From a virus, in IMG/VR virus record IMGVR_UViG_3300042863_001469, positions 1 to 30,559 of that record: a stretch of 30,559 nt of DNA, one strand, 5' to 3'. The notes beneath the pieces are model-generated. The model ran no database searches, was not told the DNA's origin, and saw only the letters and a program-made list of their open reading frames with translations. Positions 1,082-30,559 of this stretch are shown here, piece by piece (position 1 is the stretch's first letter; the number at the start of each line of letters is the position of its first letter). A program made the translations under genes and the position numbers.

Positions 1082-1082
1082 T

Positions 1083-2876: not shown

Positions 2877-2877
2877 A

Positions 2878-7732: not shown

Positions 7733-7733
7733 T

Positions 7734-13941: not shown

Positions 13942-13943
13942 GG

Positions 13944-14165
13944 TTAATCCTCATAATCTTCGTCTTCGTTTTCTTCTACAGAATATTCAGTTAACGCACG
14001 AGATAAGAAATTATCAGCACTTGCAAATTCTTTTAATTCCAAATCACTTAACAGATCCACCATAACGCTCATTAGATTGTCTGCCACTTCTTGTCGATCT
14101 TTAACTGAAATATACTGCTTCATGATGATATACGCTTCACCTAATACTTCTACATCTATAGACAT
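13944..14165 (-). CDS. Small acidic protein between radical-SAM genes
   Basis: A 73-residue acidic protein, no recognised family. It begins MSIDVEVLGEAYIIMKQYIS, continues KDRQEVADNLMSVMVDLLSD, and ends in a very acidic tail (SVEENEDEDYED). It is mostly helical, with no Cys. A clear AAGGA ribosome-binding site precedes the ATG, and the upstream frameshifted radical-SAM gene ends two bases before. It resembles small acidic proteins I recall from marine T4-like phages. Being flanked by two radical-SAM genes makes it a possible partner or substrate, but it lacks an obvious leader-core arrangement. Confidence 0.7.
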   Translation of the reverse strand: MSIDVEVLGEAYIIMKQYISVKDRQEVADNLMSVMVDLLSDLELKEFASADNFLSRALTEYSVEENEDEDYED

Positions 14166-14167
14166 AG

Positions 14168-14473
14168 TTATGGTTCCTTTTTAAAAATTAATAAATCGTC
14201 TGTACAACCGGTGCATCTTTCTTTTTTACATATCGATGGGCCACTAAACAACTGCCATCCTGTAAGTAAATTTCCTAAATTGTCATTTGAACATTCCCCA
14301 CTCAACACGGTAAAATCAGAGTCAATATGTATTCTATTATACCCTGCATCACACTCCCAACCTTTCCAAAAATCTAGTTGTTGGTTGTGAATCCAATTGG
14401 CGCCAACATTGTATGTTTCACCAGTGGATAGTTTAATCGAGCAATTGTAATATGGTTGATTTTTAAAGTTCAA
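14168..14473 (-). CDS. SPASM-like Cys-rich C-terminal part of radical SAM protein (shifted frame)
   Basis: A 101-residue frame with six Cys (11, 41, 61, 82, 87, 90). The pattern KGWECDAGYNRIHIDSDF...SGEC...ICKKERCTGC resembles a SPASM/twitch auxiliary-cluster domain, where 'C.aG...l.id..G.v..C' is typical. No ATG start exists: the frame opens at a TTG overlapping the last codons of the radical-SAM core gene, with no good ribosome-binding site. It is therefore most likely the C-terminus of that enzyme, reached by a +1 shift at the CTT-TAA site, or separated by a sequencing or natural indel. Alone it would have no catalytic core. Confidence 0.75.
   Translation of the reverse strand: MNFKNQPYYNCSIKLSTGETYNVGANWIHNQQLDFWKGWECDAGYNRIHIDSDFTVLSGECSNDNLGNLLTGWQLFSGPSICKKERCTGCTDDLLIFKKEP
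14463..14468 (-). other. Candidate +1 frameshift site CTT-TAA
   Basis: On the minus strand the radical-SAM core ends GAA-CTT-TAA. Slipping forward one base on CTT gives TTT, then AAA-AAT-CAA, and enters the SPASM-like frame. CTT followed by a stop starting with T is the same slip arrangement as bacterial prfB (CUU-UGA). A purine-rich AAAGG lies about 15 nt upstream, farther than the prfB internal Shine-Dalgarno. A single-base error in the read is the alternative. Confidence 0.5.
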
Positions 14474-15083
14474 GATTTAACTTACCTTTAAAAATTGGAA
14501 TATTACGTGTTTGGTGTGAGTAATCGATTTCATTTACAGTAAAACTGACAGAATGATCTGATAATATTTTTTTATAATATTCAATTCTGTCCTGATTCCA
14601 AAATTCATTCATTATGTTTACATGTAAAAACTTATCTGGTGCCAATTTATTGTGCAGTGCTATGATTGTATCAAAAAACTTGGTTTCGTCCATGTGTTCG
14701 GAATGTGTACTGAATGAAATATTGTCAACATACTTATATAGCTTTAGATAATACTGTAAATTTGCGCTTCCATTGGTTGTTACCAGAATTTTTATTATGT
14801 CATTACCATAGTACAGCCTTAGCCACTTAATAAAAGGTAAAAAATTCTTGTTAACAGTGGGTTCACCTCCTGAAAAACCAATTTTATATTTTAGTTTTCG
14901 TAATGATGTTTGAGAATGTAAACTTATCCATGCTTGTTGCAACTGAGCTAAACTATGAGCAGTGTCAGTATCATTATGATAAGTGGGAGAACAATACATA
15001 CAATCGTAGTTACACCTTAGTCCAATTTTCCAAGTCAGACTAAAATATTGCTCAGTAGGTGCAACTTCAATTATTTTATTCAA
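14463..15083 (-). CDS. Radical SAM enzyme core domain, TTG start
   Basis: A 206-residue radical-SAM core. CNYDCMYC (Cys24, 28, 31) binds the [4Fe-4S] cluster, and IGFSGGEPTVNK (residues 68-79) carries GGEP. A barrel with ILVTTNGS and ISFSTHSEH strands completes the fold. The TTG at 15083 starts inside the uvsX stop region with an 8-nt overlap. At about 206 residues it is short and ends just where the SPASM-like frame begins. Core and auxiliary domain together (14168-15083) would give about 300 residues, a normal length for a SPASM/twitch radical-SAM enzyme. The organisation resembles 7-carboxy-deazaguanine synthase-like or peptide-modifying rSAMs, but the substrate is unknown. Confidence 0.85.
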   Translation of the reverse strand: MNKIIEVAPTEQYFSLTWKIGLRCNYDCMYCSPTYHNDTDTAHSLAQLQQAWISLHSQTSLRKLKYKIGFSGGEPTVNKNFLPFIKWLRLYYGNDIIKILVTTNGSANLQYYLKLYKYVDNISFSTHSEHMDETKFFDTIIALHNKLAPDKFLHVNIMNEFWNQDRIEYYKKILSDHSVSFTVNEIDYSHQTRNIPIFKGKLNLEL

Positions 15084-16143
15084 TGTCTTCTGGTACCAGA
15101 TCTGGCTCCACTACTTGTTGATGTGGATTCGCTGTAAAATTCACCATCACTCGATCTAAACTACTATCTTCGTTACGTTCCCAGGCTTTGCGGAATTGCT
15201 TGATAACTGTACCGTCTGCTAGCGTATAACTTAGACTGTTGCCTTCTTTCTTTAATAGTCCTTTACTCTCAAACATATCCACTAGTCCGCTATATGGATT
15301 CATGCCTGTTTCATAAGGAATCTTAACTTGGACACTTTCAAATGGTTTATTGTAACGTGTTTTCATAATCTTGCAAGCGGCTCTAATACCTTTAACTTCA
15401 CTTATCTTGTTGCCATCCTCATCTTCTTTGAGTTTGAGCTTCTTCATGGCAACAACAATACTGCTGGCATAGATAAAGCCTTGTCCACCCGATATCTTGT
15501 CGTCAGGATCAAACATGTCTTGACTTGCATAAGTGTGATTGGTACATACTAGACCAATATTTAAATTACCAAACATGTTTACACAGTTACGTACCAGACT
15601 GGTAAGTGCCTTGGGTTTACGGCCCATATCACCCTTCATTTCACCTGCTTCAAACTGGTTAACGTCAGTGGGTGTTAACAACATACCCAGGCTGTCCAGG
15701 ACAAATAGCACTTTGGGCCTACCTTCTTCGGGCAGTGTCTTGTACTCCTTGACAAAATCGCTGATGACTTTGGCTACATCATCAATCATGGCCAGGTTAA
15801 GTTTAAGCATTTTATCTTCACTGGTATCCACGCCCAATGCATGCAACCAGGCTTCATCTAGCGCATTTTCAGTATCAACAAGAATAACATAGATACCCTG
15901 CTGTTGTGCATTTTTAACTAAATTGCCCGAACAGATAAAACTTTTTCCTGCACCGGATTCCCCGGCAAACACAGTAACCTTGCCCATGGGTATACCTTTA
16001 TTAAAGTCTCCGCTGATAAGGTAGTTTAGTGCAAAGTTGTTTGTTGAGATCCAGTCTGTTGGATCTGTAAAGCCCACACTAATGCCATCAATTGCTTTAG
16101 TGATATTTTTTCGAAATTTTGATACGTCAAATGGTTTTGCCAT
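15076..16143 (-). CDS. uvsX: UvsX RecA-like recombinase
   Basis: A 355-residue RecA/Rad51-fold recombinase with the T4 UvsX layout. Walker A is GESGAGKS (61-68) and Walker B is KVLFVLDSLG (about 144-153). Loop regions include TNHTYASQDMFDPDDKISGG, and the C-terminus is acidic (VVEPDLVPEDIE). It polymerises on ssDNA with UvsY help to drive strand invasion in recombination-dependent replication. Length is close to T4 UvsX (about 390), slightly shorter. An AAGGA site precedes the ATG. It overlaps the upstream radical-SAM gene by 17 nt and the downstream one by 8 nt. Confidence 0.95.
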   Translation of the reverse strand: MAKPFDVSKFRKNITKAIDGISVGFTDPTDWISTNNFALNYLISGDFNKGIPMGKVTVFAGESGAGKSFICSGNLVKNAQQQGIYVILVDTENALDEAWLHALGVDTSEDKMLKLNLAMIDDVAKVISDFVKEYKTLPEEGRPKVLFVLDSLGMLLTPTDVNQFEAGEMKGDMGRKPKALTSLVRNCVNMFGNLNIGLVCTNHTYASQDMFDPDDKISGGQGFIYASSIVVAMKKLKLKEDEDGNKISEVKGIRAACKIMKTRYNKPFESVQVKIPYETGMNPYSGLVDMFESKGLLKKEGNSLSYTLADGTVIKQFRKAWERNEDSSLDRVMVNFTANPHQQVVEPDLVPEDIE

Positions 16144-17281
16144 GATATAGGTCCTTAAAAATTTTAGTGCTATCTAGGCCTCGCCGTTGATCCAGAATTT
16201 TTATTTGATCAAACGATTCGGCTAAATTCTTTTCTACTGGTTGGTTAATATGTTCTAATACATTACGATATCCGTTTTCTAATAAGAATCCGGGATGTTC
16301 GTTAATTCTTGTCATTAATTGCTCCTTGACTAAGTCTAGCATATTGTCAGGTAGATGTCTAATGTTTAAATAGTCAGGTCCTGTTAAAGCACCAATAATA
16401 AAACTGTTATTGTGAAATTTCAGGCCTTTCAAGAAGTCCACACAATTAAAGATTGACTGATAATTCAATAAAAAATGCAGCATGTTAAAGGATACTTTAT
16501 GATTTAACTTCCGAACAATGTTCAAGTTATCCAGGAAATCTGCCCATTTTCCACCATATCTGATGTACTCATATTCTTGTTCCATGGACTCAACACTTAT
16601 AACCCAGTGTACATTTTTAAACGTACACACCAAGTCAAATGTATGTGTATCAACCTTGCTTAAATTTGTGTTTATGCGTAAATTAACTTCGGGATTTTTT
16701 TCTTTAAGCAGTTCCAGGAATTCTAAATTTTCTTTCATCAATAATGGTTCACCTCCGGCCATGTACACATGTTTTAATTGAGCAGCATGACCAAATATAT
16801 AATCCTTGAATTGACGTTTCTTGTTTTCTTCCGGAGTCTCAACTTTGATAGCCAATTCGTCGACCCATTGGCTGCTGAATTGCGGTCCGCAGTATACACA
16901 GGAAAAATTACAAAGATTACTCCAGCGTACATCAACTGTGTGTAAATCAAATGTAGTTGGTTCATCATAGGTACTAAGAGGAACTGATTTGAGTTCTTTG
17001 AGATAAAACACTCGATCACTAATGATATCAAAACTTTTCTTTTGGGTTTCTAACTCATAACACGGAGAGCATCGTGGACCAGGTTCATTGATAATCATGT
17101 TAAATCGTGTATGAATATTCTTTACATTGTTTACAATATCTTGAATTGGAGTGTCTTGTATATTGCCAATGGGTGCTGCACTACGAATACAATTTTTAAC
17201 GTTGCCATCAAAATTATACATTAAACCTGTCCAGGGAACAGGACAAAAGTTGTGATTGGTTAAATACTCTTTACTCTTCAT
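16127..17281 (-). CDS. Twitch-domain radical SAM protein
   Basis: A 384-residue protein with an N-terminal auxiliary-cluster (twitch) domain ahead of a radical-SAM core. The first part has FCPVPWTGLMYNFDGNVKNC, then GNIQDTPIQDIV, and CSPC at 71-74, a SPASM/twitch-like pattern. The core starts VRWSNLCNFSCVYCG (Cys124, 128, 131), with YMAGGEPLL as the GGEP motif. This architecture recurs in marine T4-like phages and has no assigned substrate that I know of. It shares 4 nt with the SDR gene upstream and overlaps uvsX by 17 nt downstream, so it is locked into the recombination operon. Confidence 0.88.
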   Translation of the reverse strand: MKSKEYLTNHNFCPVPWTGLMYNFDGNVKNCIRSAAPIGNIQDTPIQDIVNNVKNIHTRFNMIINEPGPRCSPCYELETQKKSFDIISDRVFYLKELKSVPLSTYDEPTTFDLHTVDVRWSNLCNFSCVYCGPQFSSQWVDELAIKVETPEENKKRQFKDYIFGHAAQLKHVYMAGGEPLLMKENLEFLELLKEKNPEVNLRINTNLSKVDTHTFDLVCTFKNVHWVISVESMEQEYEYIRYGGKWADFLDNLNIVRKLNHKVSFNMLHFLLNYQSIFNCVDFLKGLKFHNNSFIIGALTGPDYLNIRHLPDNMLDLVKEQLMTRINEHPGFLLENGYRNVLEHINQPVEKNLAESFDQIKILDQRRGLDSTKIFKDLYHGKTI

Positions 17282-17826
17282 GAATAGTTTACACCCAGTG
17301 CAATTTCACCTACATCCAGGTCCATCCCACAGTCCAGTATATTGACCAATTTTTCAGCCCAGGTATTGACCTCTGCAAACGGCCTCGGACTTGTTTGCCC
17401 CGGTTGTGTTGCAACTGCACCGGGTTTCACTAGACATAATTTAGGCCAATTGTGTAGGTATAATAGCTGCCGATGTGCCTCTTCTAGTGCCAATTTTTGA
17501 TTATGGTATTCGATCATTTCAATACCAGGAATAGTACTTACTGGTTCTAGAGTCATCATGGTACTGATATTAATAATTTTTTTATTTTCCTTGCCTTGCC
17601 ACTCTTTATAAACAGCAAATAACAATTCAGTTTGTGCAAATCCTGCCTGTGCATTATTAATAAAGACGTCACAGTCTCGTATTTTTTCTACCAGTTTAGG
17701 TATGCTACGAATATTGTACCCATTACGACGACTCAAACCAACAACGTCGTTTCCTTTTGCTTCGTAAATTTTTGCCAGTGCTTGCCCTATACCAGCACTG
17801 TGCCCTGTAATTGCTATTCTAGCCAT
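17278..17826 (-). CDS. Short-chain dehydrogenase/reductase
   Basis: A 182-residue classical-type SDR, shorter than the usual 250. The cofactor motif TGHSAGIG is at residues 7-14, FINNAQAG replaces the common NNAG, Ser is in INISTMM, and the YxxxK pair is in EYHNQKLALEEA. KPGAVATQP follows, as in other SDRs. All catalytic residues are present, so it should be an active NAD(P)-dependent oxidoreductase. The truncated C-terminus suggests a small or unusual substrate pocket. Small SDRs like this occur in marine T4-like phages. It is overlapped by 13 nt with the 2OG oxygenase gene upstream. Confidence 0.85.
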   Translation of the reverse strand: MARIAITGHSAGIGQALAKIYEAKGNDVVGLSRRNGYNIRSIPKLVEKIRDCDVFINNAQAGFAQTELLFAVYKEWQGKENKKIINISTMMTLEPVSTIPGIEMIEYHNQKLALEEAHRQLLYLHNWPKLCLVKPGAVATQPGQTSPRPFAEVNTWAEKLVNILDCGMDLDVGEIALGVNYS

Positions 17827-18287
17827 TTTAAAGGCTCATTGTGAAAAGTAAAACTTGCTACTATACGCGGCACTTCAGTTGCTGTGGTTTGTTCAACGCT
17901 ATGCTCAATTTGAGAATTAAACACAATTGGTTGTGTCATATCCAATAATTCTGCTACCATCGCACCATTAATATACCATCGATTGGCCCATCCAGTGGTG
18001 TTAATCACTGGGAAATTGATTTTTGCTATTACTGGCTTTTCATCAATATGTCTAGGAAGATGTGTGCTATCAGTTACTATTGTTACTGCAGCATGTCGGG
18101 GGACCAATTTATTTGTTTTAAAATACTCCAATAAATCAGGTGCTGCATCAAATAAACTTTTACAATCAATAAAGTGCCAGCCATATATTTTTGTATTTAA
18201 TATGTCTGTTTTTTCTTTGATATATTGATAAATTTGTTTTGAAATTATATTAACATTGTTACAAGGAAGTTCTACATAGCATTTCAT
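17814..18287 (-). CDS. 2OG-Fe(II) oxygenase-like protein
   Basis: A 157-residue double-stranded beta-helix oxygenase. The iron-binding triad is visible: LPRHIDEK (His80, Asp82) and IEHSVEQ (His129), plus VPRIVASFTF (Arg141) for the 2-oxoglutarate carboxylate. INFPVINTTGW between them is the family strand pattern. Its size fits small phage 2OG oxygenases related to aspartyl/asparaginyl hydroxylases. The substrate is unknown. A good AAGGAG ribosome-binding site lies before the ATG, and the start overlaps the upstream radical-SAM stop by 4 nt, linking the two enzymes in one translational unit. Confidence 0.78.
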   Translation of the reverse strand: MKCYVELPCNNVNIISKQIYQYIKEKTDILNTKIYGWHFIDCKSLFDAAPDLLEYFKTNKLVPRHAAVTIVTDSTHLPRHIDEKPVIAKINFPVINTTGWANRWYINGAMVAELLDMTQPIVFNSQIEHSVEQTTATEVPRIVASFTFHNEPLKWLE

Positions 18288-19216
18288 ATTCCACGTAACT
18301 CCTTTTGATGTTCAATAAACTCATCTAGTGCAATCTGGTTGTTCTTGTCAACTGCCACTATATCCGGAAATATATAATTATATGGTTCTGTTAGCGTATT
18401 TAAATATTTCACGTTAATCGGATCTGGGTCGTGCAAAAATGCATACGAGTGTTCTAGATGATGGTCAGAAACAAATTGTTTAATCGCCGTAAAATTATGA
18501 ATATTTAATGCACTAACTGTGGTCCAGGTGTTTAAGTCTACGCCAGGCATATTTTTATACGTTATAAGATTTTTATAAAACTTGTCCCATTTAATGGGCC
18601 AACGTACAAAATCGTGTGTTTCCTCTATGCCATCTAGGCTTACTGTAACAACGACTTTAATACCACGATTGGTCAAGTGTTCAATTTCTTCAATTACAAT
18701 TGAACAATTTGTATTAATCCGCACTTCTTTAACATTTGGTGGTAAATTACGCAATACCTCAAGATAATTTTTACTGGCACTGGGTTCACCACCATTGATG
18801 TCCAACTTGACAATACGCCCAATTGGCAATTGCCAAAAACGATTTGTATTGTCCACTATGGGGTACATCTTGGAAGTTAGGCTACCAATCTTGGTGCTAT
18901 GATTTTCGTCGCAGGTCAAACACCCACTATTGCAGATATTGTCCAGTACTCCACCAACAATCAAGTAATCTCGTCGTGTTTGTTGTTGATGAAATCTAAT
19001 AGTATGTACACGTATACTGTCTTGCTCTAGTGCTTCAGTTTCTTTACAGCGTATACACTCTGTGGGCCATGGTAATTGTTTTGCTTTGTATAGCCATTCG
19101 CTGTTTTCCATCTCCAACAACGAATTAAACTCTGGTGCATTAACCATATGACCACACCGGCTAACAGTACCGTTGGGATTAAATCTTACAAAGTGATTTA
19201 AACGAGGACATTGCAT
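18284..19216 (-). CDS. Twitch-like radical SAM protein
   Basis: A 310-residue radical-SAM enzyme. The N-terminal about 75 residues contain CPRLNHFVRFNPNGTVSRCG and a CIRCKETE motif, resembling the tail-end SPASM/twitch cluster module moved to the front. The core has DNICNSGCLTCDEN (Cys95, 99, 102) and KLDINGGEPSAS. Later VTVSLDGIEETHDFVRWP matches the typical barrel strand 'vSlDG'. It is adjacent to the sulfotransferase-like and 2OG oxygenase genes, overlapping both. The substrate is not deducible. Confidence 0.87.
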   Translation of the reverse strand: MQCPRLNHFVRFNPNGTVSRCGHMVNAPEFNSLLEMENSEWLYKAKQLPWPTECIRCKETEALEQDSIRVHTIRFHQQQTRRDYLIVGGVLDNICNSGCLTCDENHSTKIGSLTSKMYPIVDNTNRFWQLPIGRIVKLDINGGEPSASKNYLEVLRNLPPNVKEVRINTNCSIVIEEIEHLTNRGIKVVVTVSLDGIEETHDFVRWPIKWDKFYKNLITYKNMPGVDLNTWTTVSALNIHNFTAIKQFVSDHHLEHSYAFLHDPDPINVKYLNTLTEPYNYIFPDIVAVDKNNQIALDEFIEHQKELRGI

Positions 19217-20914: not shown

Positions 20915-22366
20915 TTATTTTTTAGAAAGACCACTGAGCCATTTTAACATGGCAATGTCTTCATTTACTACTGGTGCATCTGCAGTACTGGCACCAGTTG
21001 GTTGTGGTGCAGGTTGTGGTGAAACTGGCAGCGGCTGAGTTGATGCATTTTGATTTTGCATGTTGGTCAATATTGCTTTGGCCAATACTGTTTCACCATT
21101 GGACATCAACCAACCCAGAACTAGTTGTCTGGCATCAGCATCCGGTCCCTGACTTCTGGATAATTTATATAGTGCATTTTTAAGCTCATCGCTGTCCAGG
21201 AAATGAATTTCATCCAGTGCAGCCATGGCGTCGACACCGTCAACACCAGTACGTATCGGTGTTTGGGCTAAATCGATCAGGTCTTGTTCATCCTGGTCAT
21301 CGGAATCCGAATCCCAAGTTTCTTCAGTGATACCAGTTGCCCAGGATTCAAATTCTGTTGTCATAGGACTGTCCATTTTTTGACGATGTTTATATGCACG
21401 GAACACGTAAGGTAGTGCTTCGTTAAATCTATCGTCGTAGATTTTTTTAACAAAACGTTCACGTAGTGAATCCACATCGATATTTTCTTCTTCTAGATTA
21501 GACTCTTGAGTAATCATACTCATTAGCATTTCGTGACCTTTACGGCCTTGGAGTCTTTTTAAATGATCTCTAACTTCGTTATAACGATAAACTGCTGCTT
21601 CTACCATTCCGGTAGTTTCCTGATCTTCAAATGTACGATTACGCATACTACGAACAAAATGACGCATACTGGCCATTTCCTTGACCATTTCGTTAATTAA
21701 ATCGCTGCCTTCGTCACCAAATCGACCACCGTGTCTTAGATGATTGGCTGTGGCGCGGGCACCGTGTAGATTGGTATGGTCCAAAAGGAAACGCTCACCC
21801 ACTGGAGTTTCAACAAATACATGTTCAATTTGTCTGCCGCGGGCACCGTGACGATCAGGATCAATTTGATCACGATGTTTAATAATTAGTTTATGTGTGC
21901 CAACGTCGCCAAAACTTACATGTTTGTTATTGCCGTGACCGTATAAACGACTTTCGGCTATGGCTAATTCATCTTTGTCGTAGGTGCTGTCTGAGTTGCT
22001 CTGTTGCTTGATATCGCGAAGATCTAGATTGCTGCGATTGATATCTCTAACGTCAAACTGTAACATGTTTCTACGGGCGAACTTTCTTAATGCTCTTAAA
22101 AATCTGTGCCATTCAGATTCTTGCTCTTCATCAAGTCCTTGAGTAATGTTGGAGCTATAGTACACTCTTAACGAATCTTCGTCTATTAAACTTAGGGTAA
22201 CATTTCCAAAATTTTCTCCGGATTCGCTAACATAATCAAAGTTAAGGAATCGAGCTTTTTCTGGATCTGTAATACGTTGGGCTTTATCGTCGCCCAGATT
22301 GACTCGATCAAATCTTGATCTGATCTTATTGAAGAGTTCTTCGGAAATTTTATCTAATTCACGCAT
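20915..22366 (-). CDS. Large unknown phage protein with acidic and Pro-rich C-terminus
   Basis: A 483-residue soluble protein with no recognised family. The N-terminal about 230 residues are mixed and charged, with strands such as HKLIIKHRDQID and HVFVETPVGERFLLDHTNLH. The middle (about 235-345) is helical and charged, with a FVRSMRNRTF segment. An acidic patch DSDSDDQDEQDL follows, then helices around 400-430. A Pro/Gln/Ala linker (LPVSPQPAPQPTGAS) precedes the last residues DIAMLKWLSGLSKK. That terminal LxxLSG element recurs in other proteins of this block. Its position between gene 32 and terminase suggests a packaging or virion role; this is inference. Confidence 0.75.
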   Translation of the reverse strand: MRELDKISEELFNKIRSRFDRVNLGDDKAQRITDPEKARFLNFDYVSESGENFGNVTLSLIDEDSLRVYYSSNITQGLDEEQESEWHRFLRALRKFARRNMLQFDVRDINRSNLDLRDIKQQSNSDSTYDKDELAIAESRLYGHGNNKHVSFGDVGTHKLIIKHRDQIDPDRHGARGRQIEHVFVETPVGERFLLDHTNLHGARATANHLRHGGRFGDEGSDLINEMVKEMASMRHFVRSMRNRTFEDQETTGMVEAAVYRYNEVRDHLKRLQGRKGHEMLMSMITQESNLEEENIDVDSLRERFVKKIYDDRFNEALPYVFRAYKHRQKMDSPMTTEFESWATGITEETWDSDSDDQDEQDLIDLAQTPIRTGVDGVDAMAALDEIHFLDSDELKNALYKLSRSQGPDADARQLVLGWLMSNGETVLAKAILTNMQNQNASTQPLPVSPQPAPQPTGASTADAPVVNEDIAMLKWLSGLSKK

Positions 22367-22372
22367 AATGTA

Positions 22373-22939
22373 TTATTTATGGTCGAAATTCATAAAGTAT
22401 GTATAACTGCTTAACCGCCAGTGATCACTGGGTATTTCGTTCAGCATACCGTGCCATTGTTCTGGACCATTTATCATGATATAACCTGTATTCATCCGAT
22501 ATGGAACACTGTATCTCACATTTTCGCCCTGATCGTCGTGATAAAATACTGTTCCTAGCTGAGATTCTGCAGACTCAGACAGATATATCTGCATGGCTAA
22601 CTTGGGGGTAAGATTTCTTTCTGCTCCGTCCAGATGTACTGGGCAATGGAAACCCTGAAAGTCTAACCAAAAACTGCTCCAGCATCTTTTGTCATAAAAG
22701 CTGATACGCAGATGTTGTTCGATCATGGACAGACAAGAATTATAAACTTGGTCTACTTGGTTTAAAATACTGATGTCTTGGACCAATAACCGACGACGAT
22801 TGAAATCTGCTTGCATTTCTTGGGAATCCCAGGGATAATCGTAAAACTTTTCCTTTGTTACTAGCTCTAGTAGATCTTCAGGAAGTATGTCCTCTACCAG
22901 AAACAAATCCAGTCCATCATCAACAGCAGTTATTTTCAT
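22373..22939 (-). CDS. 2OG-Fe(II) oxygenase
   Basis: A 188-residue oxygenase of the small prolyl-hydroxylase-like type. The iron ligands are visible: PVHLDGA (His102, Asp104) and QWHGMLNEIP (His163), followed by WRLSSYTYF (Arg175) for 2-oxoglutarate. The core strands LAMQIYLSES and GTVFYHDD sit at the expected place between them. Similar small oxygenases are common in marine T4-like phages with unknown substrates, possibly phage or host proteins. The ATG overlaps the terminase stop by 4 nt, so it is translated right after terminase. The N-terminal 30 residues (DLFLVEDILPEDLLEL) match the lead-in helix of the fold. Confidence 0.82.
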   Translation of the reverse strand: MKITAVDDGLDLFLVEDILPEDLLELVTKEKFYDYPWDSQEMQADFNRRRLLVQDISILNQVDQVYNSCLSMIEQHLRISFYDKRCWSSFWLDFQGFHCPVHLDGAERNLTPKLAMQIYLSESAESQLGTVFYHDDQGENVRYSVPYRMNTGYIMINGPEQWHGMLNEIPSDHWRLSSYTYFMNFDHK

Positions 22940-24510
22940 ATCATTATAAACGGCATGGGTGCTATGTAATCATCCAGACTATCTCTGAGTTGTTCATCTA
23001 ACTTAGAATCATAATTTTGTAATGCTTGTGTTATTCGTAATGTCAACAATGTTGCTGAAACTAAATCGTCAGTTTCACCAATTTTGGCTGCAAAACCAGT
23101 ACCATGAGCAACAAAAGTTTTTAACTCACTAATTAAATTTTTACTGTTAATGGTTATCTTTTTATTTTCAATAAGATTTTTTAACTTGGCACAAACTGCA
23201 ATTTTAGACTTGTTGGTTGTGGTAAAACCTTTACGATGAATTCTGGATTGACCTATTTTATGTGGTTGACTCAAAAACGTACCTTTGATGTTTTCTTCAC
23301 CAACTTGTTCTATTACCACCAGGGCAGCTTCGCCCAGGGTGTTATTTTCTACACTGTAATAGATATCGTTTTGTGTGCCAATTGTGTCATACAAATACTC
23401 ACATATCTCTTTAAGAATAGCAATTTGCCTTTGTATCGGTGTTTTATTGTGTTGCCATTCGCCAACCTGAAGCATGGTGGGTAATTCGAATATCTGTATA
23501 GCAGCCGGATCGCCGCCTGTTCCAAGACTGGGGTCTAAACCAAGAACATAAGTTTTTCCACGTTGTGGTTTTCTATACCAGCGCACTTGCCCTTGTCGTT
23601 CGATTGGTTCCGAACCCTCGAGTTCAGACAGTTTAATGCTGTCGATCAGAGTTTCATCATAAATCAAGAACTCGCATCCGTGTTCGCGTCTAAAACGCTC
23701 TTCACCAATGCGGCCCATTTCTTCCTGTTTCCAGGTTTCGTCACGGTCCGGATGTTCGTCCCAGCGACTCTGATAAGCTTTGAATCCATTAATGCCAATT
23801 TTGGTAGGATTACCAAAACTGTCCACACATTTGTTGGCCTGTTTCCATATATGAGCAAACTGATCTTCGTCACTGTTTGGTGTGCTAGTAATAATAGCTT
23901 TACCGCCGGTGCTCAGTGTGGGCGATATACTGGTCCAGAATTCTTTGGCAATTGTGGGACGAACGAATGCAAACTCATCGCAGTAGAGTAGTGTAATACT
24001 CATACCACGACCAGTTGTTTCTGTGGTTGTTTGTGATACTATTCTGGATCCGTTTTCAAATTCAATTGATCCTTTGTTATAACTGGTAACACCGGCACGT
24101 ATAAAGTCCGGACATAATTCATAGGCATAGCGTACACGTTGCATAATCTCTTGTGCGCCAGTGTACTTGTGTGCAGCAATAAGTATTGTTGAGTCAGGTT
24201 GGAACATCGCAAACCACAATAGGTAACCGGCAGCACTTGTTGTCTTACCTGTTTGTCTGGGCATTAAACTAATGCTAAATCTATTGAAATGATAAGAATC
24301 TATAAGACGTTTTTGATATTCAAATGGATGATACAACATTTTTCCTCGAGTGGGGTGTTGTATATAAAAGTAGTTGTCCATGAAATGCCTAGGCCCATCC
24401 ACTGGATCTGCACATTTGACAAATTCTGTAATTTCCTCTTCAGTAAAGTTGACTTTCTGATAAGGACTCTTTATAATCGTAGTTTCAATTGGTCTTTTTT
24501 GTTTTTCCAT
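22936..24510 (-). CDS. 17: Terminase large subunit (gp17-type)
   Basis: A 524-residue packaging motor. The ATPase has Walker A PRQTGKTT (84-91), Walker B LLYCDEF (174-180) with the catalytic Glu, and the coupling motif region TSTPNSDED. The C-terminal RNase H-like nuclease carries GLDPSLG (Asp326), SVENN (Glu388) and GETDDLVS (Asp481/482) as metal ligands. Length is somewhat shorter than T4 gp17 (about 610). It cuts concatemeric DNA and pumps it into proheads together with a small terminase, which is not identified in the window. It faces a divergent HNH nuclease gene across a 39-nt gap. Confidence 0.95.
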   Translation of the reverse strand: MEKQKRPIETTIIKSPYQKVNFTEEEITEFVKCADPVDGPRHFMDNYFYIQHPTRGKMLYHPFEYQKRLIDSYHFNRFSISLMPRQTGKTTSAAGYLLWFAMFQPDSTILIAAHKYTGAQEIMQRVRYAYELCPDFIRAGVTSYNKGSIEFENGSRIVSQTTTETTGRGMSITLLYCDEFAFVRPTIAKEFWTSISPTLSTGGKAIITSTPNSDEDQFAHIWKQANKCVDSFGNPTKIGINGFKAYQSRWDEHPDRDETWKQEEMGRIGEERFRREHGCEFLIYDETLIDSIKLSELEGSEPIERQGQVRWYRKPQRGKTYVLGLDPSLGTGGDPAAIQIFELPTMLQVGEWQHNKTPIQRQIAILKEICEYLYDTIGTQNDIYYSVENNTLGEAALVVIEQVGEENIKGTFLSQPHKIGQSRIHRKGFTTTNKSKIAVCAKLKNLIENKKITINSKNLISELKTFVAHGTGFAAKIGETDDLVSATLLTLRITQALQNYDSKLDEQLRDSLDDYIAPMPFIMI

Positions 24511-24549
24511 ATTAATTACTTATGTATTACGTTATCAAGAAAGTTTATT

Positions 24550-25077
24550 TTGAACACTTTGCTTTTGAACAAAGATTATACACCAATTAGTGTACTTCCA
24601 CTAAGTGTTATACATTGGCAACATGCTATTAAACTTATGTACCTGGGACGTATTCAGGTTATTGAAACTTACCCGGACTGGATCATACACAGTGAAAAAC
24701 TTGCTATAAATGTGCCTAGTGTGGCTATGACTCGAGAATACTTTAACTTTAAACGTCGGGTAAACTTTACACGTTACAACATGTATCTACGTGATCTATA
24801 TCAATGTCAATATTGCGAAGATACATTTGATTTTGATGACTTGACTATTGATCATGTTGTTCCTGTAAGTCAGGGTGGTAAGACAGAATGGACCAACTGT
24901 GTGACCAGTTGCAAAGCCTGTAATTGGGCTAAAGCAGACAAGGCTGTTATGCAACCCACACGCAAACCATATCGACCGGATTATTGGGCACTGGCTGCTG
25001 CCTGGAAGCATAGTCCATTTAGAGTTCGAGATCCCAAGTGGAATCAATACTTGGGTAGAGATCGGGCTGCTGCTTAG
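24550..25077 (+). CDS. HNH endonuclease, TTG start
   Basis: A 175-residue HNH nuclease. The frame is open back to 24289, but the upstream part opposes terminase. The TTG at 24550 is chosen because AGAAAG lies 6 nt before it and the resulting N-terminus, LNTLLLNKDYTPISVLPLSV, is the usual opening of this HNH family. The catalytic part is CQYCEDTF (Cys86, 89), TIDHVVPVSQGG (Asp101, His102), WTNCV and CKACNWAKAD (Cys121, 124), a zinc-stabilised HNH motif. It may be a homing-type nuclease or a packaging nuclease partner of terminase. It is the only plus-strand gene among the minus-strand genes of the right-hand block. The convergent stops share TTAG at 25074-25077. Confidence 0.88.
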   Translation: MNTLLLNKDYTPISVLPLSVIHWQHAIKLMYLGRIQVIETYPDWIIHSEKLAINVPSVAMTREYFNFKRRVNFTRYNMYLRDLYQCQYCEDTFDFDDLTIDHVVPVSQGGKTEWTNCVTSCKACNWAKADKAVMQPTRKPYRPDYWALAAAWKHSPFRVRDPKWNQYLGRDRAAA

Positions 25078-25283
25078 ATTGGCTGTTCGCCTGTCAGGTA
25101 GGGTTTTGAAAACCAGAGTTTGAACCATTCTTCAGTACCCGGGCGAATATCATGTTTTTTCATGAGTTCGCCCTTTTCATTTCCAGTCACTGAGATGTTA
25201 CTACCAGCAAAGCCCTTGTACTCCTGCATTACCGCACGATTACCAATACCGGCCAATAGTTTGAGCTGTTGTATATCGTCCAT
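25074..25283 (-). CDS. Small protein with N-terminal LxxLAG motif
   Basis: A 69-residue protein of unknown family. It starts DDIQQLKLLAGIGN, a short helix-turn that recurs in larger proteins of this block. The C-terminal half has RPGTEEWFKLWFSKPYLTGE, a compact aromatic segment. A GGAGAA site precedes the ATG with good spacing. The stop shares bases with the convergent HNH stop. It may be a small structural or assembly protein. Confidence 0.7.
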   Translation of the reverse strand: MDDIQQLKLLAGIGNRAVMQEYKGFAGSNISVTGNEKGELMKKHDIRPGTEEWFKLWFSKPYLTGEQPI

Positions 25284-25351
25284 TAGTGTTCTCCGTAAGG
25301 CACTACTGGACGATCATCGTCGGGCGTGTCAGGACCGATCAGTTGCACCAT
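25283..25351 (-). CDS. Possible 22-residue ORF
   Basis: A short frame MVQLIGPDTPDDDRPVVPYG ending EH, sitting between the nuclease and the 69-residue gene. Its stop overlaps the next ATG (TAATG), the overlap style of this genome, and its start overlaps the nuclease 3' end by 13 nt. No strong ribosome-binding site is seen, so it may simply be a chance frame. Confidence 0.3.
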   Translation of the reverse strand: MVQLIGPDTPDDDRPVVPYGEH

Positions 25352-25773
25352 GACTGTTTGGCATCACCGTAGTATTCTCTAGCAAAACCGTTGGCAATCA
25401 ATTGAGCACGTAGACTCTTGCCGTTCAGAATGATGTCGCCCAATACACGACCACCAAACTTGTCCCACCCGTATAAAATAACTTGTCGCTGTTGGCTGGC
25501 ATTAATGAGTCCTTTAGTGAAAACGCTGGCAGCTTCTCCACGCTGCTTTTCGCTATCGCATTGGCCACGGAATCCTTTTTCTGGTGTGTCAACTCCATAG
25601 ATTCTAACAGCAAGTTCGGGCTTGAGGGGTGCAGGTAGAAAGGGTGCGGCAATAACAACTGTATCGCCATCTGTTACTCTGATAATTTGTGCGTCATATG
25701 TAACGCCTTGTGGTGCTTTTTGTGCAAATACAAATACGGGTGCTAATAATAGAATTGCTAATAGTTTTTTCAT
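25339..25773 (-). CDS. Secreted staphylococcal-nuclease-like (TNase) nuclease
   Basis: A 144-residue SNase-fold nuclease with an N-terminal signal peptide (MKKLLAILLLAPVFVFAQ), so it should be exported to the periplasm. The catalytic set of micrococcal nuclease is present. TDGDT (35-38) and VRIYGVDTPE supply Arg57, Asp62, Thr63 and Glu65, and DKFGGRVLGDI supplies Arg109. Two Cys (72 and 143) could form a disulfide. Length matches the bare nuclease domain. A Ca-dependent nuclease sent outside the cytoplasm could degrade host or competitor DNA, or help clear released DNA at lysis; which is unknown. It sits in the structural block upstream of the small LAG-motif gene. Confidence 0.87.
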   Translation of the reverse strand: MKKLLAILLLAPVFVFAQKAPQGVTYDAQIIRVTDGDTVVIAAPFLPAPLKPELAVRIYGVDTPEKGFRGQCDSEKQRGEAASVFTKGLINASQQRQVILYGWDKFGGRVLGDIILNGKSLRAQLIANGFAREYYGDAKQSWCN

Positions 25774-25794
25774 TGATTTTCCTTGTTAATTTTT

Positions 25795-26304
25795 TTACCA
25801 GGCTCTACATGACCAATATCTAGCACTTGTACGTGGACCTGGATTCTCGCAACGGTGTCTTGCTCTAAAACTTTTACGACGTTTGGGGTTTGACTTTTTA
25901 ATCTTCATGTTGGGATCACCAAAGTTAACTTTAACTACGTTACCTTTTGCGTTCTTGACATAAACTTTTGATTTTTTAACGTCACCTTGCATGGGCTTGC
26001 CGAGAGGAACATTACGACCTTGATATTCTGCTTCATCAATATCTCTGTTGTTACTGCCGTGTATGGGACTTGTACTATCATTGGCAACCGGCATGTTTGA
26101 ATCTTCAGTCAAGTATCCAACATGCATTAATATTCGCATTGTTTCGTCATCTGCTTCAATAACTATACCATCTTCAACAATATCAACAACTGTGGTTTCA
26201 ATTACAAGTTCTTCCCTAGCAATTTCTAAATCAAAATAATCACCTATGCTAGGATCATCGTATGACTCTTCTACCTGTTCGATATATTCTCTTAGAGTTT
26301 TCAT
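25795..26304 (-). CDS. Unknown protein with conserved Cys/Trp C-terminal module
   Basis: A 169-residue protein. The acidic N-terminal half (MKTLREYIEQVEESYDDPSI, then EELVIETTVVDIVEDGIVIE) looks like a small helix-plus-strand domain. The basic C-terminal 40 residues read FGDPNMKIKKSNPKRRKSFR, then ARHRCENPGPRTSARYWSCR and AW. That module, with two Cys and a YWSC(R/K)AW ending, is one I recognise as recurrent in phage proteins, but it has no function I can state. The two Cys and His could bind a metal. The start overlaps the preceding large gene by ATGA. Confidence 0.7.
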   Translation of the reverse strand: MKTLREYIEQVEESYDDPSIGDYFDLEIAREELVIETTVVDIVEDGIVIEADDETMRILMHVGYLTEDSNMPVANDSTSPIHGSNNRDIDEAEYQGRNVPLGKPMQGDVKKSKVYVKNAKGNVVKVNFGDPNMKIKKSNPKRRKSFRARHRCENPGPRTSARYWSCRAW

Positions 26305-28865
26305 CGCTTGGTTCCTGGTGCTGGTGCTGCTTGTGTTGCGCCCGGAATTCGTATATTTAATGCTGACTGCGTTGTCGTTTTTGGTGTCGGTGATGCTCCT
26401 GTACCTGTTGGTGCTGCTGGTCCTGCTCCTTGAGTCTTAAGGGCGCCTGCAAGTCCTGATTGACGGGATGTTTGTGTTCCTTGTACCGGGAATCCACTGG
26501 CTCCTGTACCTGTTGGTGCTGCTGGTCCTGCTCCTTGAGTCTTAAGGGCGCCTGCAAGTCCTGATTGTGCTGGTTTGCCCGTTGTAGGAGATTGGGTAGG
26601 GGCCGGAGCACTATCAGCTGGCGGCATTGTTGCACCTTTTGGAGGTGTAACCATCTTGCCAGTTTTTTCATCCTGATATGGTTGTTCAGCTTTTAGCACA
26701 TCGGTCATTTCTTCACGTACCAGGATGCTGTCCAATAGTGATGCTAGTTCTTCATCTAACTCCATGGCCATGGGGTTATCGCTATTGCGATAACTGTGCT
26801 TGTATTGTTGTTTTTCACGATTCAGATCGTCGCCTTGACGAATAATACTGTCCACAGTTTGATATTCTTCTTCTGGTTCATTGGCGTATTCTTCCTGCAC
26901 TGATCCTGATGCCTCCATTGCTTTGTTGTAGGAATCTAAATACTTTCCGCCTTCAAATTCTTCCCAAGATGTATCTTTAAGTTTATGGAATCCCTCGATA
27001 TCGCCTGCTACAACTACCGGCCAGGCTTCAACCATAATACCCACTCCAGAGTCGGTCACCAAGACATCACCGTCATGAATATCATCGTTAGTTTGCGTTT
27101 CGTCGTATAGCTCACGTCCTGACATTCTACTTAAATCGTGAACTTGCATACCGCCGGAGTCTTCCATCATTTCATTATTACCACGCTGCTGCATGAATTG
27201 TAATTCTTTCTGGGCAGTACTCATGGCATCATCTAAATCATCTGTGTGGTACCAGGATTCATCTGATGTAAGTTTCCCATCTTTAATAAACTTGACCACA
27301 TATTCGCCCCATTCCAAATCTTTATAAACCTTGGCGCCGAGAGCAGAATCCCCCAACTTGTCAATTAATCTTTGACTTGCCGCTTCATCCATCATTTGGT
27401 CGCGAGGCTCATTTCCTATCATGATAATTTCTGGCTCGGTCATACCCACATGATCATGATCATCATGTGGGCGCATGCCGGCCATTTTTAGCATCTGCAA
27501 TAGTGCATCTGCCTTGTCACCTTGTGCGCTAATACTTACACTCTTGTTACCGTCGCTGTTCATGTTGGTGCTAACGTTCATTGAATCGTCTTGTTTCATG
27601 TCCATATCGCCACATTCAGCAACTTGACTTTCACTTAGTCCAGCCAATCTGGCCAGTTCGGTTAACTCAGTCGACGGGGCAACTTCCAGCATACCCTCGC
27701 TCATGCCACTACCCATGTCCATGTAAAAACGTTCTTCTACCCAACTGTGCGGGTCATCCTTTACTGCACTGTAAGGTATTTCACCGGTATCTCGATAATA
27801 ATCGTACAATGCATGATATAAATCTGAGTCCATTTGGCCATGGGCCATGAAGTTTTTAACTTCGTGTTTAAATCTATTTTTAAGATGATCTAAAGTACCA
27901 CCACCCTCAGTTAGTGATAACCCCTCGGTTACCTTGGTTGTCGATGGAGCTTTTTCTTGCATGGGTCGACCACTTAACCGCATTAATTCGTTTAATTCTT
28001 CTTCTAATTCTTCTTCTAATTCTTCTTCCTTCATTTGGATACCCATTGGGCCTCTTTTTGCAATCACATCGTCGGAATCAGTTGACATGTTAGCACTGCC
28101 TGTTACTTGAGGGCCACCCACTGTGGGCGGATTAACTGATGCAGGATTTGATGCTGTTGCCATACCAGGTGCACCAATTGCAGAACCCAGTCCCACTGGT
28201 CCCGGGGCTGGTTTAGCTCCCTGACTTGCTGGTGCTGTGCCAGTTTGCATACCTGTAACATTGGCTTGTGGAGCAATACCCAGTGCATTAGCTTGTGGTG
28301 CGGGTGTTGGTTCTGCTGCAGGTCCAGATTGCATACCTTGAACATTGGCTTGCGGAGCAATACCCAGTGCATTAGCTTGTGGTGCTGGTGTTGATGCTGC
28401 TGCAGGTGCGGGTGCGGCGGCAGGTTTTGCACCACCGGCTGCTCCTGGCAAGAAACTGTTACCTTGACCCGAGGGGTCTTGTACACCCTGTGGTGCTTTT
28501 GCTTGGTTAGCAGCAAAAGCAGCATTAGCAGATTTAACTGCTGCTCCGTAATTTGGTGCAGCTGGTTTTGCTGTAGGTTTTGCGCTGCCGCCCGCCGGAG
28601 CATTAAAATTTTGTGTGGCAAGTTTAGCCGGACCAGCTTTGCCAGTGTTATATGCTGGTGCGCTAGGATTTGATGGCAATGGTGCAGAGGGCTTTCCGCT
28701 ACCACCGCGGCCACTGGTACCTGCACTGCCACCCTGGAAAAATCCAGACAGTGCGTTACCAATTGCTTTGGCACCGGCACCTACATTTGGATCATTTTGG
28801 AATGTACCATCACCTGGTGCTTCATTTAATATATTACTGTATTGTCTTAATAGTTTTGGGTTCAT
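26301..28865 (-). CDS. Large Ala/Pro/Gln-rich repetitive protein, probable virion or assembly component
   Basis: An 854-residue protein from ATG 28865, chosen over an upstream GTG (28895) because GTG lies inside the previous gene and the ATG has an AAGAGA site. The first about 260 residues are Ala/Gly/Pro/Gln low complexity with a 28-residue repeat (PQANALGIAPQAN). An acidic EELEEELEEELNELMRLSGR region follows, then globular parts around 310-690. The C-terminus has a 35-residue period repeat, with two copies of QSGLAGALKTQGAGPAAPTG. Several LxxLxG motifs are scattered in it. No enzyme motif is visible. It resembles tail-fibre, scaffold or prohead-core type disordered proteins, but the class is unproven. 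Confidence 0.75.
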   Translation of the reverse strand: MNPKLLRQYSNILNEAPGDGTFQNDPNVGAGAKAIGNALSGFFQGGSAGTSGRGGSGKPSAPLPSNPSAPAYNTGKAGPAKLATQNFNAPAGGSAKPTAKPAAPNYGAAVKSANAAFAANQAKAPQGVQDPSGQGNSFLPGAAGGAKPAAAPAPAAASTPAPQANALGIAPQANVQGMQSGPAAEPTPAPQANALGIAPQANVTGMQTGTAPASQGAKPAPGPVGLGSAIGAPGMATASNPASVNPPTVGGPQVTGSANMSTDSDDVIAKRGPMGIQMKEEELEEELEEELNELMRLSGRPMQEKAPSTTKVTEGLSLTEGGGTLDHLKNRFKHEVKNFMAHGQMDSDLYHALYDYYRDTGEIPYSAVKDDPHSWVEERFYMDMGSGMSEGMLEVAPSTELTELARLAGLSESQVAECGDMDMKQDDSMNVSTNMNSDGNKSVSISAQGDKADALLQMLKMAGMRPHDDHDHVGMTEPEIIMIGNEPRDQMMDEAASQRLIDKLGDSALGAKVYKDLEWGEYVVKFIKDGKLTSDESWYHTDDLDDAMSTAQKELQFMQQRGNNEMMEDSGGMQVHDLSRMSGRELYDETQTNDDIHDGDVLVTDSGVGIMVEAWPVVVAGDIEGFHKLKDTSWEEFEGGKYLDSYNKAMEASGSVQEEYANEPEEEYQTVDSIIRQGDDLNREKQQYKHSYRNSDNPMAMELDEELASLLDSILVREEMTDVLKAEQPYQDEKTGKMVTPPKGATMPPADSAPAPTQSPTTGKPAQSGLAGALKTQGAGPAAPTGTGASGFPVQGTQTSRQSGLAGALKTQGAGPAAPTGTGASPTPKTTTQSALNIRIPGATQAAPAPGTKR
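26395..26567 (-). repeat. Direct repeat, two 68-nt identical copies
   Basis: Copies at 26395-26462 and 26500-26567 are identical over 68 nt and lie 105 nt apart start to start, a multiple of three. They sit inside the large repetitive gene and encode the QSGLAGALKTQGAGPAAPTG segment. They could drive unequal recombination that changes protein length by 35 residues. Confidence 0.9.
27993..28028 (-). repeat. Tandem 12-nt repeat (Glu/Leu codons)
   Basis: Three exact copies of a 12-nt unit (plus strand TAATTCTTCTTC) encode EELE-type repeats in the large protein. Tandem short units can gain or lose copies by slippage, in frame. Confidence 0.85.
28245..28393 (-). repeat. Direct repeat, about 65 nt, 84-nt period
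   Basis: Two near-identical copies (about 28245-28309 and 28329-28393, a few mismatches) encode PQANALGIAPQAN and its surroundings in the Ala/Pro-rich N-terminal part of the large protein. The spacing preserves the reading frame. Confidence 0.85.
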
Positions 28866-28867
28866 TT

Positions 28868-30559
28868 TTATCTCTTTTGCCTTCCTGCTAACCACAGAAT
28901 GTCGTTTAGTTCAGTATTTATTGATTCTGATACTGTGTTTTGTTTTGATTTCTTGCTACCTTCTTTAAACATCCCCTTAACATCATCACCTGAATAATAA
29001 CGTGTTTCTGGTTGACGATAGCCAGCTGGCGCAGTAGGAGTTGGATCGGTATATTTTCTACCATCAGCATCTTGGCGGTATTTTATTTCAGCTCCCATCA
29101 ATCCTTTATCTCTTAACGGATATTTTTCATCTGAACTATTACTAGTTGATGGCATAGCTGATTGTTTTTGTTTAATAACGTCACCAATTGGGTCAGACGA
29201 TGGTGAAGCCGCTGCAGCGGATTTAGCAAAATCTGCTCGGGATTTTTCTGCACCTAGTCTTGCGTTAACATCAGCTGCGACATTTGCTGCATTTGCTGTG
29301 TTAGCTTTGGTAGCAGCATCGATATCAGCCTGACTGGGCTCAGTACTTGGTGATGCGGTAGGTTTATTGGTTTTTCCTAGTTCTGATCTTAACCATTGAT
29401 CTGATCCTGGTCCCGGACGAGTATTGGTTCCCACTGCTTGTAGATCATACGGATCTGCAGGGATAACTCCGGTACGACGTGGTGGCGTAGGATTTATTGT
29501 TGGTGTTGTATCTGGAGTTGGCAGTGGGCCTTGTCCTTTGTCATCTGATCCTAGACCATAACCTATCAACCCGCCACCTGCAGCAGCGGCAAGCGCGGTA
29601 GCTGTTCTACTTAATGGTTTACCACCCGTAGCAGCAGCGGTAGCGGTAGCGGCTTTGTTACCACCTGCGACAGTAGAAGCTGCTGGTGCTGGTTGACCTT
29701 TGCGCCATACTGCTGGATCTTTTGCCACAGTATTAGTAGTCTTGACACCCATACCCGGATTGCCATATGGATTAAAATCTTTAACGGGATTACCTTTTGA
29801 ATCCGCTGGTAACTTACCAAAGTTTTTACTGAGGGGAACATCTCCAGTTACACTTTTCTTGACTAGTTTTGCTGCGTCATCGCCGTAGCCTCGCATTTGT
29901 CTTAAAGCAGCTAATCCAGCACCAAATTTATCCTCTAAGGTTTTAATTAACTGTGCTTTTTCTTCTTCAAGTTTTTTAATTCTATTCTGTAATTTTTTAT
30001 CCATTGGGGTATCACTTTCTTTTAACTTTGGGGTAGCAGACGCTACCTCTTTATCTTTGTCTACTGCTGTTTTTAATTCTTCATCAGATGGAAAAAACGA
30101 TCCTGTACGATACTTATCTCTAATTGCATGGGTTGCAACAGCAGGAAGCCCTAGTATCGGAACAGCCCCAGCGGCCGAAATAGCTGACCCTGTATAATCA
30201 CCTAGACTGGCTCTCCTTAGTGCATCAGCACCTTGATAAGCAACGTTTAGTCCTGGTACTGCCTTGGCAATGACTCCGCCTACCTTGGGTAAAAATTGTC
30301 CTGCGGCAGCAGCCAGACCAGTAACACCTGCCACATCTGCTGCTTTACTATATGGTGTTAAATTTTCTGCGCCTTTAACTGCTGCTGTAACAGGTGCTGC
30401 AGTGGGACTAGGCTTGGCTCCTTGACCAGACTGAGGAGCAGTTACTGGTTGTTGTCCGGCGATTTTACTCAGTGTATCACCTTTTTGTACAGTGTATGTT
30501 CCACCACCGGGTAAATTAATTTTTTGACCAATCTGTATTTTGTTGGGATCGGCTATGGT
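28868..30559 (-). CDS. LysM-containing large protein, N-terminus beyond window
   Basis: The frame is open to the window edge at 30559; a GTG at 30334 is in frame but not convincing as a start. The first visible residues IADPNKIQIGQKINLPGGG are the end of one LysM repeat, and GTYTVQKGDTLSKIAG, just after, is the start of another, degenerate copy. LysM binds peptidoglycan-type glycans. Then come a Gly/Ala-rich, mildly hydrophobic stretch (VPGLNVAYQGADALRRASLG), a coiled-coil-like EEEKAQLIKTLEDKF, and long Ala/Pro/Thr-rich, probably disordered regions. The C-terminus ends TELNDILWLAGRQKR, the LxxLAG motif. It is probably a virion protein that contacts the cell wall. About 563 residues are visible. 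Confidence 0.78.
   Translation of the reverse strand, partial: TIADPNKIQIGQKINLPGGGTYTVQKGDTLSKIAGQQPVTAPQSGQGAKPSPTAAPVTAAVKGAENLTPYSKAADVAGVTGLAAAAGQFLPKVGGVIAKAVPGLNVAYQGADALRRASLGDYTGSAISAAGAVPILGLPAVATHAIRDKYRTGSFFPSDEELKTAVDKDKEVASATPKLKESDTPMDKKLQNRIKKLEEEKAQLIKTLEDKFGAGLAALRQMRGYGDDAAKLVKKSVTGDVPLSKNFGKLPADSKGNPVKDFNPYGNPGMGVKTTNTVAKDPAVWRKGQPAPAASTVAGGNKAATATAAATGGKPLSRTATALAAAAGGGLIGYGLGSDDKGQGPLPTPDTTPTINPTPPRRTGVIPADPYDLQAVGTNTRPGPGSDQWLRSELGKTNKPTASPSTEPSQADIDAATKANTANAANVAADVNARLGAEKSRADFAKSAAAASPSSDPIGDVIKQKQSAMPSTSNSSDEKYPLRDKGLMGAEIKYRQDADGRKYTDPTPTAPAGYRQPETRYYSGDDVKGMFKEGSKKSKQNTVSESINTELNDILWLAGRQKR

Follow-up and report, generated by a model that had tools for sequence, protein, structure and literature searches.

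In phage P22 and the herpesviruses, the scaffold (gp8 and the assembly protein, respectively) attaches to the shell through a short helical element at its C-terminus, which is able to carry fused cargo, and in encapsulins, a short terminal peptide on a flexible linker, the cargo-loading peptide, sends unrelated enzymes into an HK97-fold shell. For phage T4, a capsid targeting sequence (CTS) has been described on the internal proteins IPII and IPIII, which is a short portable address into the prohead that ends at a protease site and combines a constant tag with varied cargo (PMC9026906, PMC3012670). All T4 internal head proteins are described as using the CTS (PMC5694885), which is not conserved in other core proteins, and a 2023 review calls the localization of the core proteins mysterious (PMC9958956). 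In phage P1, a terminal peptide of DarB is sufficient to direct a reporter into the phage head (PMC9024508). Here, we analyzed a 30,559-nucleotide stretch of DNA (positions 1 to 30,559 of IMG/VR virus record IMGVR_UViG_3300042863_001469; hereafter, the window), a 30.6-kb fragment of a jumbo phage of the T4 superfamily in which four genes encode copies of a short motif, hereafter the tag. Based on sequence comparisons, we consider it probable that the tag is a short, portable docking element that is the scaffold's own tail, brings passenger proteins into the prohead, and may be removed by a protease.

The P22 and herpesvirus tails stay on the scaffold and its precursor forms, whereas the tag is common to separate genes and its binding to the coat is conjectural. 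Encapsulins are not known to use a scaffold and a protease, while phage proheads have both, and the likeness of their loading peptides to the tag is one of description. The T4 CTS is N-terminal, about 10 residues long, and of another sequence (MKTYQEFIAE), whereas the tag is mostly C-terminal or internal, by inspection does not resemble MKTYQEFIAE, and lies near the N-terminus in only one (25074) of the five protein families considered below. The DarB signal is also N-terminal, the Dar proteins show no evident consensus, and no separate scaffold has been identified in P1 (PMC9024508). A literature search, from whose scope subscription papers and preprints were excluded, found in the accessible texts no description of the motif or of a tag common to a scaffold and its passengers.

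The first-pass annotation of the window had proposed, based on five peptides, a common docking or targeting tag, for example into the prohead. All five peptides were confirmed, each on the minus strand: DIAMLKWLSGL at the C-terminus of the gene at 20915-22366, DIQQLKLLAGI at the N-terminus of the gene at 25074-25283, LNELMRLSGR and LTELARLAGL in the gene at 26301-28895, and LNDILWLAGR at the C-terminus of the gene starting at 28868. This list was an understatement, since the 26301 gene contains two further, looser copies (LLQMLKMAGM and VHDLSRMSGR). The carriers, their tags, and the gene used as a synteny anchor are as follows.

20915..22366, minus strand: 483-aa protein encoded after the large terminase gene, virion structural family (phrog_13484, 1.5e-11)
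20930..20956, minus strand: tag IAMLKWLSG at the C-terminus of gene 20915-22366, then LSKK (motif scan; kept in 27 of 27 distinct full-length homologues)
22936..24510, minus strand: large terminase (TerL), synteny anchor
25074..25283, minus strand: 69-aa protein upstream of TerL with an N-terminal tag, no family assigned (open reading frame [ORF] and profile searches)
25248..25274, minus strand: tag IQQLKLLAG, residues 4-12 of gene 25074-25283 (motif scan, homologues)
26301..28895, minus strand: 864-aa protein rich in Ala, Pro, and Gly, with 3-4 copies of the tag and acidic stretches (ORF, motif scan, homologues)
27969..27995, minus strand: tag LNELMRLSG in 26301-28895 (motif scan)
27639..27665, minus strand: tag LTELARLAG in 26301-28895 (motif scan)
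27477..27503, minus strand: tag-like LLQMLKMAG in 26301-28895, newly found (looser pattern; a like sequence is kept after AQG in homologues)
27117..27143, minus strand: tag-like VHDLSRMSG in 26301-28895, newly found and the weakest copy (looser pattern; no counterpart in sibling matches)
28868..30559, minus strand: LysM-containing protein, open at the contig end, with a C-terminal tag (ORF and domain search)
28883..28909, minus strand: tag LNDILWLAG at the C-terminus of the 28868 gene, then RQKR (motif scan)

The tag has the shape of an amphipathic helix with hydrophobic residues at positions 1, 4, and 7 and an L(A/S)G end that is mostly followed by L, I, or R, and it usually sits at the end of a protein. 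Using the strict pattern [LIMVF]xx[LIMVF]xx[LI][AS]G[LIVMR], we found 4 matches in the 39 ORFs of the window compared to a mean of 0.21 in shuffled sequences; none of 200 shuffles reached 4. Here and in the other sequence sets, ORFs were called mechanically by longest frame, so that some may be false. The reversed motif gave no match, and 24 patterns with altered spacing matched 0.71 times on average and never more than 3 times. We then pooled eight T4-superfamily records, namely the window, a sibling contig of 137 kb, and six distantly related jumbo phages, with a total of 3854 ORFs and 770,196 residues. In this set, the strict pattern matched 51 times, whereas 100 shuffles gave 20.7 matches on average and at most 27, and 14 matches fell within the last 16 residues compared to 0.72 by shuffling (maximum 5), while the 24 altered-spacing controls gave at most 34 matches in total and at most 4 at the C-terminus. 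T4, S-PM2, HTVC008M, and phiKZ together showed no excess (2 strict matches compared to 6.7 expected, none of them C-terminal).

Among 126 related IMG/VR contigs (1404 ORFs of at least 50 aa), 189 of 193 strict matches fell into five gene families, i.e., a gp22-type family (80) and the 20915 family (45), for both of which the counts are partly by design because the contigs were picked for carrying one of these genes, and the 25074 (17), 26301 (38), and 28868 (9) families. The scarcity of matches outside these families is independent of how the contigs were picked. Families were sorted by simple signatures, with two 20915 rows and nine 28868 rows assigned from their tails, and some of the contigs represent the same phage twice (e.g., L018 and L235). 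Hence, the motif is not equally frequent in unrelated proteins, which account for 4 of the 193 matches, nor is it absent from the corresponding sites of homologues: it ends the 20915 protein at 45 of 46 loci, the remaining one being cut by the contig end, and is kept in 17 of 17 homologues found of the 69-aa protein, in L036 and L043 behind an N-terminal extension. The case for the motif is carried by its C-terminal placement and its conservation.

The gp22-type gene, which lies between the genes for the head maturation protease and the major capsid protein, ends in the tag at all of the 80 sibling loci fetched, the best 80 of 256; 70 of these tails matched before F was allowed at the second position and all 80 thereafter. 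PHROG matches in contig L279 give the order portal (phrog_213), protease (phrog_207), gp22-type gene, and major head protein (phrog_138), and the PA5oct protease also matches phrog_207. Compared with the T4 order 20-67-68-21-22-23, the tag-ended gene occupies the place of gene 22. In six further jumbo records, the gp22-type gene is likewise directly upstream of the capsid gene, and the tag, strict or degenerate, ends the gp22-type protein in 7 of 7 named distant jumbo phages examined. The tails are VFEIKRLAGLK in G001 and VEELRRLAGIK in PA5oct. For the gene directly preceding the capsid gene, Phosso has IHELRRLAGIEK, Atu_ph07 has INDLKRLAGIKK, and Vibrio phage 2.275.O has LDRLTKIAGIRK; 121Q (LKELDVLSGINKK) and RaK2 (LEELSILSGIIKK) have an LSGI form and CBB, examined in 40 kb only, a degenerate NAGI form. 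The gp22-type proteins of PA5oct and the siblings share about 42% identity; they vary in the linker that precedes the tail and keep VxExxRLAG(L/I).

The gp22-type protein belongs to phrog_10922, which is listed as of unknown function. A phAPEC6 protein of equal mass to the product of the 121Q gene (42.21 kDa) is annotated as a scaffolding protein; phAPEC6 gp226c, annotated as a scaffolding protein, was detected in virions with 2 peptides and 4.9% coverage, and the record of the PA5oct gp22-type protein (EST35_0153) has no mass spectrometry (MS) note. An AlphaFold model has long helices of modest confidence and a low-confidence tail from residue 319. Judged from this model and these records, the gp22-type protein appears to be elongated and helical and to be mostly degraded, with little left in virions. 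The motif thus coincides with the C-terminus of a gp22-type scaffold, which gives comparative support to the link to the prohead in the first-pass annotation. T4 gp22 ends EDIVSVYAKVASRF, and the gp22 proteins of cyanophages and pelagiphages end in MxxYxxxxxR forms. Two patterns for this T4-type tail matched gp22 and no other ORF in T4, S-PM2, and HTVC008M (P-SSM2 and KVP40 were examined in 20-kb pieces only), and therefore, the sharing of the tail looks like a property of the jumbo lineage.

The most telling group of carriers is the 28868 type. Proteins at this position have the same tail behind LysM, SLT transglycosylase, GH19, GDSL-like, or PG_binding_1-like (peptidoglycan-binding-like) domains. 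Of the eight proteins scanned, several of which are cut by contig starts, those of L016 and L005 had no match; GDSL_2 and PG_binding_1 scored below the Pfam cut-offs, while Lipase_GDSL just passes. At three loci (L013, L016, and L025), two such genes are arranged in tandem.

For the 20915 family, 38 of the 46 loci are full length and were used, giving 27 distinct homologues. The AlphaFold model of the window protein has a very low-confidence stretch at residues 443-468 followed by a helix at 469-477 that overlaps the tag, and a structure search with this low-confidence model gave no match at an E value of 0.001 or better. In 121Q, the place after TerL is taken by a 48.48-kDa protein (3901-5184; L217) whose mass matches that of the phAPEC6 virion protein gp205c and whose end, LESLKEWANGKK, is perhaps a degenerate tag. 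The 69-aa protein matched no family and nothing in the phage records searched. In Atu_ph07, a 113-aa protein beside TerL starts with the tag and is otherwise without evident likeness to the 69-aa protein.

Siblings of the 26301 protein that are complete or nearly so have 3 or 4 copies of the tag, and cut ones have fewer. Because homologues start with, e.g., MNPKLLRQ or MDPKLLR, the called GTG start of 26301 is probably wrong and the true start an ATG near 28865. Residues 520-563 form a small conserved stretch that matches phrog_7884 and is also the source of tblastn matches in Pseudomonas phages and in Limnohabitans phage DC31. A family with two copies of the tag and acidic stretches links Vibrio phage 2.275.O, RaK2, and 121Q, and PA5oct EST35_0203 is joined to it by a 33-residue C-terminal match (E value of 4e-4). 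The PA5oct record, from which MS status was transcribed by hand, lists both EST35_0203 and EST35_0235 as structural proteins found by MS, and the 121Q two-copy protein (35.95 kDa) matches by mass phAPEC6 gp267c (35.96 kDa), which was seen with one peptide. In Atu_ph07, a 148-aa NUDIX-like protein (domain named by eye) starts with the tag.

The scaffold's terminal helix is thus also present on other head-region proteins and on unrelated wall-degrading enzymes, and for this reason, the tag is probably an address label. We suggest that the 20915, 69-aa, 26301, and 28868-type proteins would show a scaffold-like tail in the growing prohead and that, having the same kind of tail, they could take the site that the scaffold tail occupies. 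Docking may take place on the capsid protein, at its inner face, or on the core. The passengers would become part of the core or form a lining of the shell as the prohead assembles and in this way be co-assembled into the head. At maturation, a gp21-type protease may remove the tag at the [LIV]xE sites upstream of it in the scaffold, 20915, and most 28868-type proteins. Extending this scheme, we tentatively propose, at a confidence short of even, that scaffold mimicry could be a second packaging code beside the N-terminal CTS in jumbo phages of the T4 superfamily, with unrelated proteins (transglycosylase, chitinase-like, LysM, GDSL-like, and the Atu_ph07 NUDIX-like proteins) copying the scaffold helix, the 26301 type cross-linking several docking sites, and the protease clipping the tags. 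One tag pattern on scaffold and passengers makes core targeting in T4-type proheads directly testable; it also gives a sequence rule for predicting packaged, perhaps injected, jumbo phage proteins and a possible means of filling very large heads with foreign proteins.

Several observations count against the tag being such a docking element. Total motif counts are weak in single distant genomes: in Vibrio phage 2.275.O alone, one altered spacing gave 8 matches compared to 6 for the true motif, in PA5oct alone, an altered spacing gave 8 compared to 9, and contig G002 had no excess (1 strict match compared to 0.65 expected). N-terminal matches in the pooled set (6) lie inside the altered-spacing range (maximum 9). 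The gp22 identity was assigned from gene position, the long helices predicted, and the annotation in phAPEC6; a profile comparison with T4 gp22 gave a weak match (8% probability in hhalign over 30 N-terminal columns), and the PA5oct record labels the protease gene "prohead assembly (scaffolding) protein" and the gp22-type gene hypothetical. The gp22 tail helix is predicted at very low confidence (predicted local distance difference test [pLDDT] score of about 39), and the overall quality of the model for 20915 is poor (mean pLDDT 59). The PA5oct homologue of 20915, EST35_0206, lacks the tag and is nevertheless noted as MS-found, and so the tag is not needed there and is not kept on all orthologues. 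Virion proteomics covers a minority of the carriers, and because 93 PA5oct proteins have an MS note, two or three carriers among them are only suggestive. As to cleavage, [LI]xE[SGTA] is frequent in gp22-type proteins (mean 8 per protein), so that a site upstream of the tag proves little, and a V at P3 departs from the L/I-x-E rule of the T4 protease (PMC9026906).

Among the alternatives, we considered that the tag recruits the gp21-type prohead protease or is recognized by it, and not by the shell or core, and thereby marks proteins for processing. The [LIV]xE sites upstream of many copies suggest that the tag is removed by a protease and are what this alternative would expect. PV[VTM]xE shortly precedes the tag in 27 of 27 distinct full-length 20915 homologues, with the L043 protein (3915-5519) having a 54-residue insertion between its PVMNE site and the tag; of the 13 tails listed for the 28868 type, with G001 and L018 counted as one contig, 12 have [LIV]xE before the tag, and the L and E of an LxE site upstream of the tail are invariant in 8 gp22 proteins. 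On the other hand, the copies in 26301 are internal, the tag of the window's 69-aa protein starts three residues from the N-terminus and leaves no room for such a site before it, and the T4 protease is described as needing just the short L/I-x-E motif (PMC9026906). We therefore regard a role restricted to protease recognition as unlikely.

In the window, Phosso, PA5oct, and Atu_ph07, carriers are neighbors of TerL or lie close to it, which could also be accounted for if the tag attaches to the portal or the packaging machinery and organizes the packaging vertex. Tagged wall-degrading enzymes are, however, hard to place at this vertex, in RaK2, 121Q, and Vibrio phage 2.275.O, tens of kilobases separate the two-copy carriers from TerL, and the scaffold, of which T4 has about 580 copies (PMC9958956), is more abundant than a portal would be expected to bind, making this a decidedly unlikely explanation. 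Finally, a recurrent helix type without common function, arising by chance or domain reuse, is very improbable, because despite matches of the looser pattern to unrelated window proteins (including the Walker A region of a UvsX-like protein and a sugar epimerase) and altered spacings that equal the match number in some single genomes, the motif is enriched in the pooled set, above all at the C-terminus, is confined to five families in 189 of 193 cases, is conserved against variable linkers, and shows no excess in the four control phages.

Three candidates were set aside. Chance resemblance is disfavored by the pooled shuffles, the altered-spacing controls, and the control genomes, while single distant genomes alone are indecisive. 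One ancestral domain common to the carriers is not supported, as they match different families or none outside the tag. An ssrA-type degradation tag does not fit the residues found after the motif (LK, IK, LSKK, or RQKR) or its additional occurrence close to an N-terminus.

We also identified a candidate for a second targeting signal in the window.

25795..26304, minus strand: 169-aa protein with the N-terminus MKTLREYIEQ, candidate second targeting signal (likeness to the T4 CTS MKTYQEFIAE)

This N-terminus (MKTLREYIEQVEE) resembles the T4 internal-protein CTS, and siblings start with, e.g., MKSFREYIAEAE or MVMKSFKDYLLETE. One pattern picks out the 25795-26304 protein together with two T4 ORFs of 100 and 193 aa, both starting with MKTYQEFIAE, which we take to be two internal proteins. 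From its sequence, the 25795 gene seems to be a candidate CTS carrier, and its CTS-like start implies that the CTS and tag systems may coexist here. The N-terminally tagged 113-aa protein of Atu_ph07 (81806-82144; L197:1806-2144) has KTLREYVEQV near its end, very like the 25795 start, and a 54-aa T4 ORF (L086:18969-19130) starts with MKTFKEFIKED, a further CTS-like N-terminus. The end of the 683-aa T4 ORF, presumably Alt, bears no likeness to the tag. T4 Alt is described as having a C-terminal propeptide (PMC5694885).

The window also contains a gp32-like gene. In its remainder, positions 1-9000 hold a run of sugar/lipopolysaccharide-type genes, and 12778-19216 hold several radical-SAM-like proteins around the uvsX-like gene, all named by eye. 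An ORF for an HNH-like endonuclease (by eye) on the plus strand at 24289-25077 lies between the 69-aa gene and TerL and overlaps both as called. The gene at 25339-25773 encodes a Staphylococcal-nuclease-like protein (PF00565) with a signal-peptide-like start (by eye) and was found in 16 sibling loci. The TerL of the window shares 55% identity with its counterpart in Pseudomonas phage PA5oct. In two siblings, TerL is in two pieces, with about 434 bases between the pieces in G008 (L013 contig, 5465-7470) and residues 335-381 unmatched in G006 (L028 contig, 28757-30163), perhaps reflecting an inserted element, a deletion, or an assembly fault.

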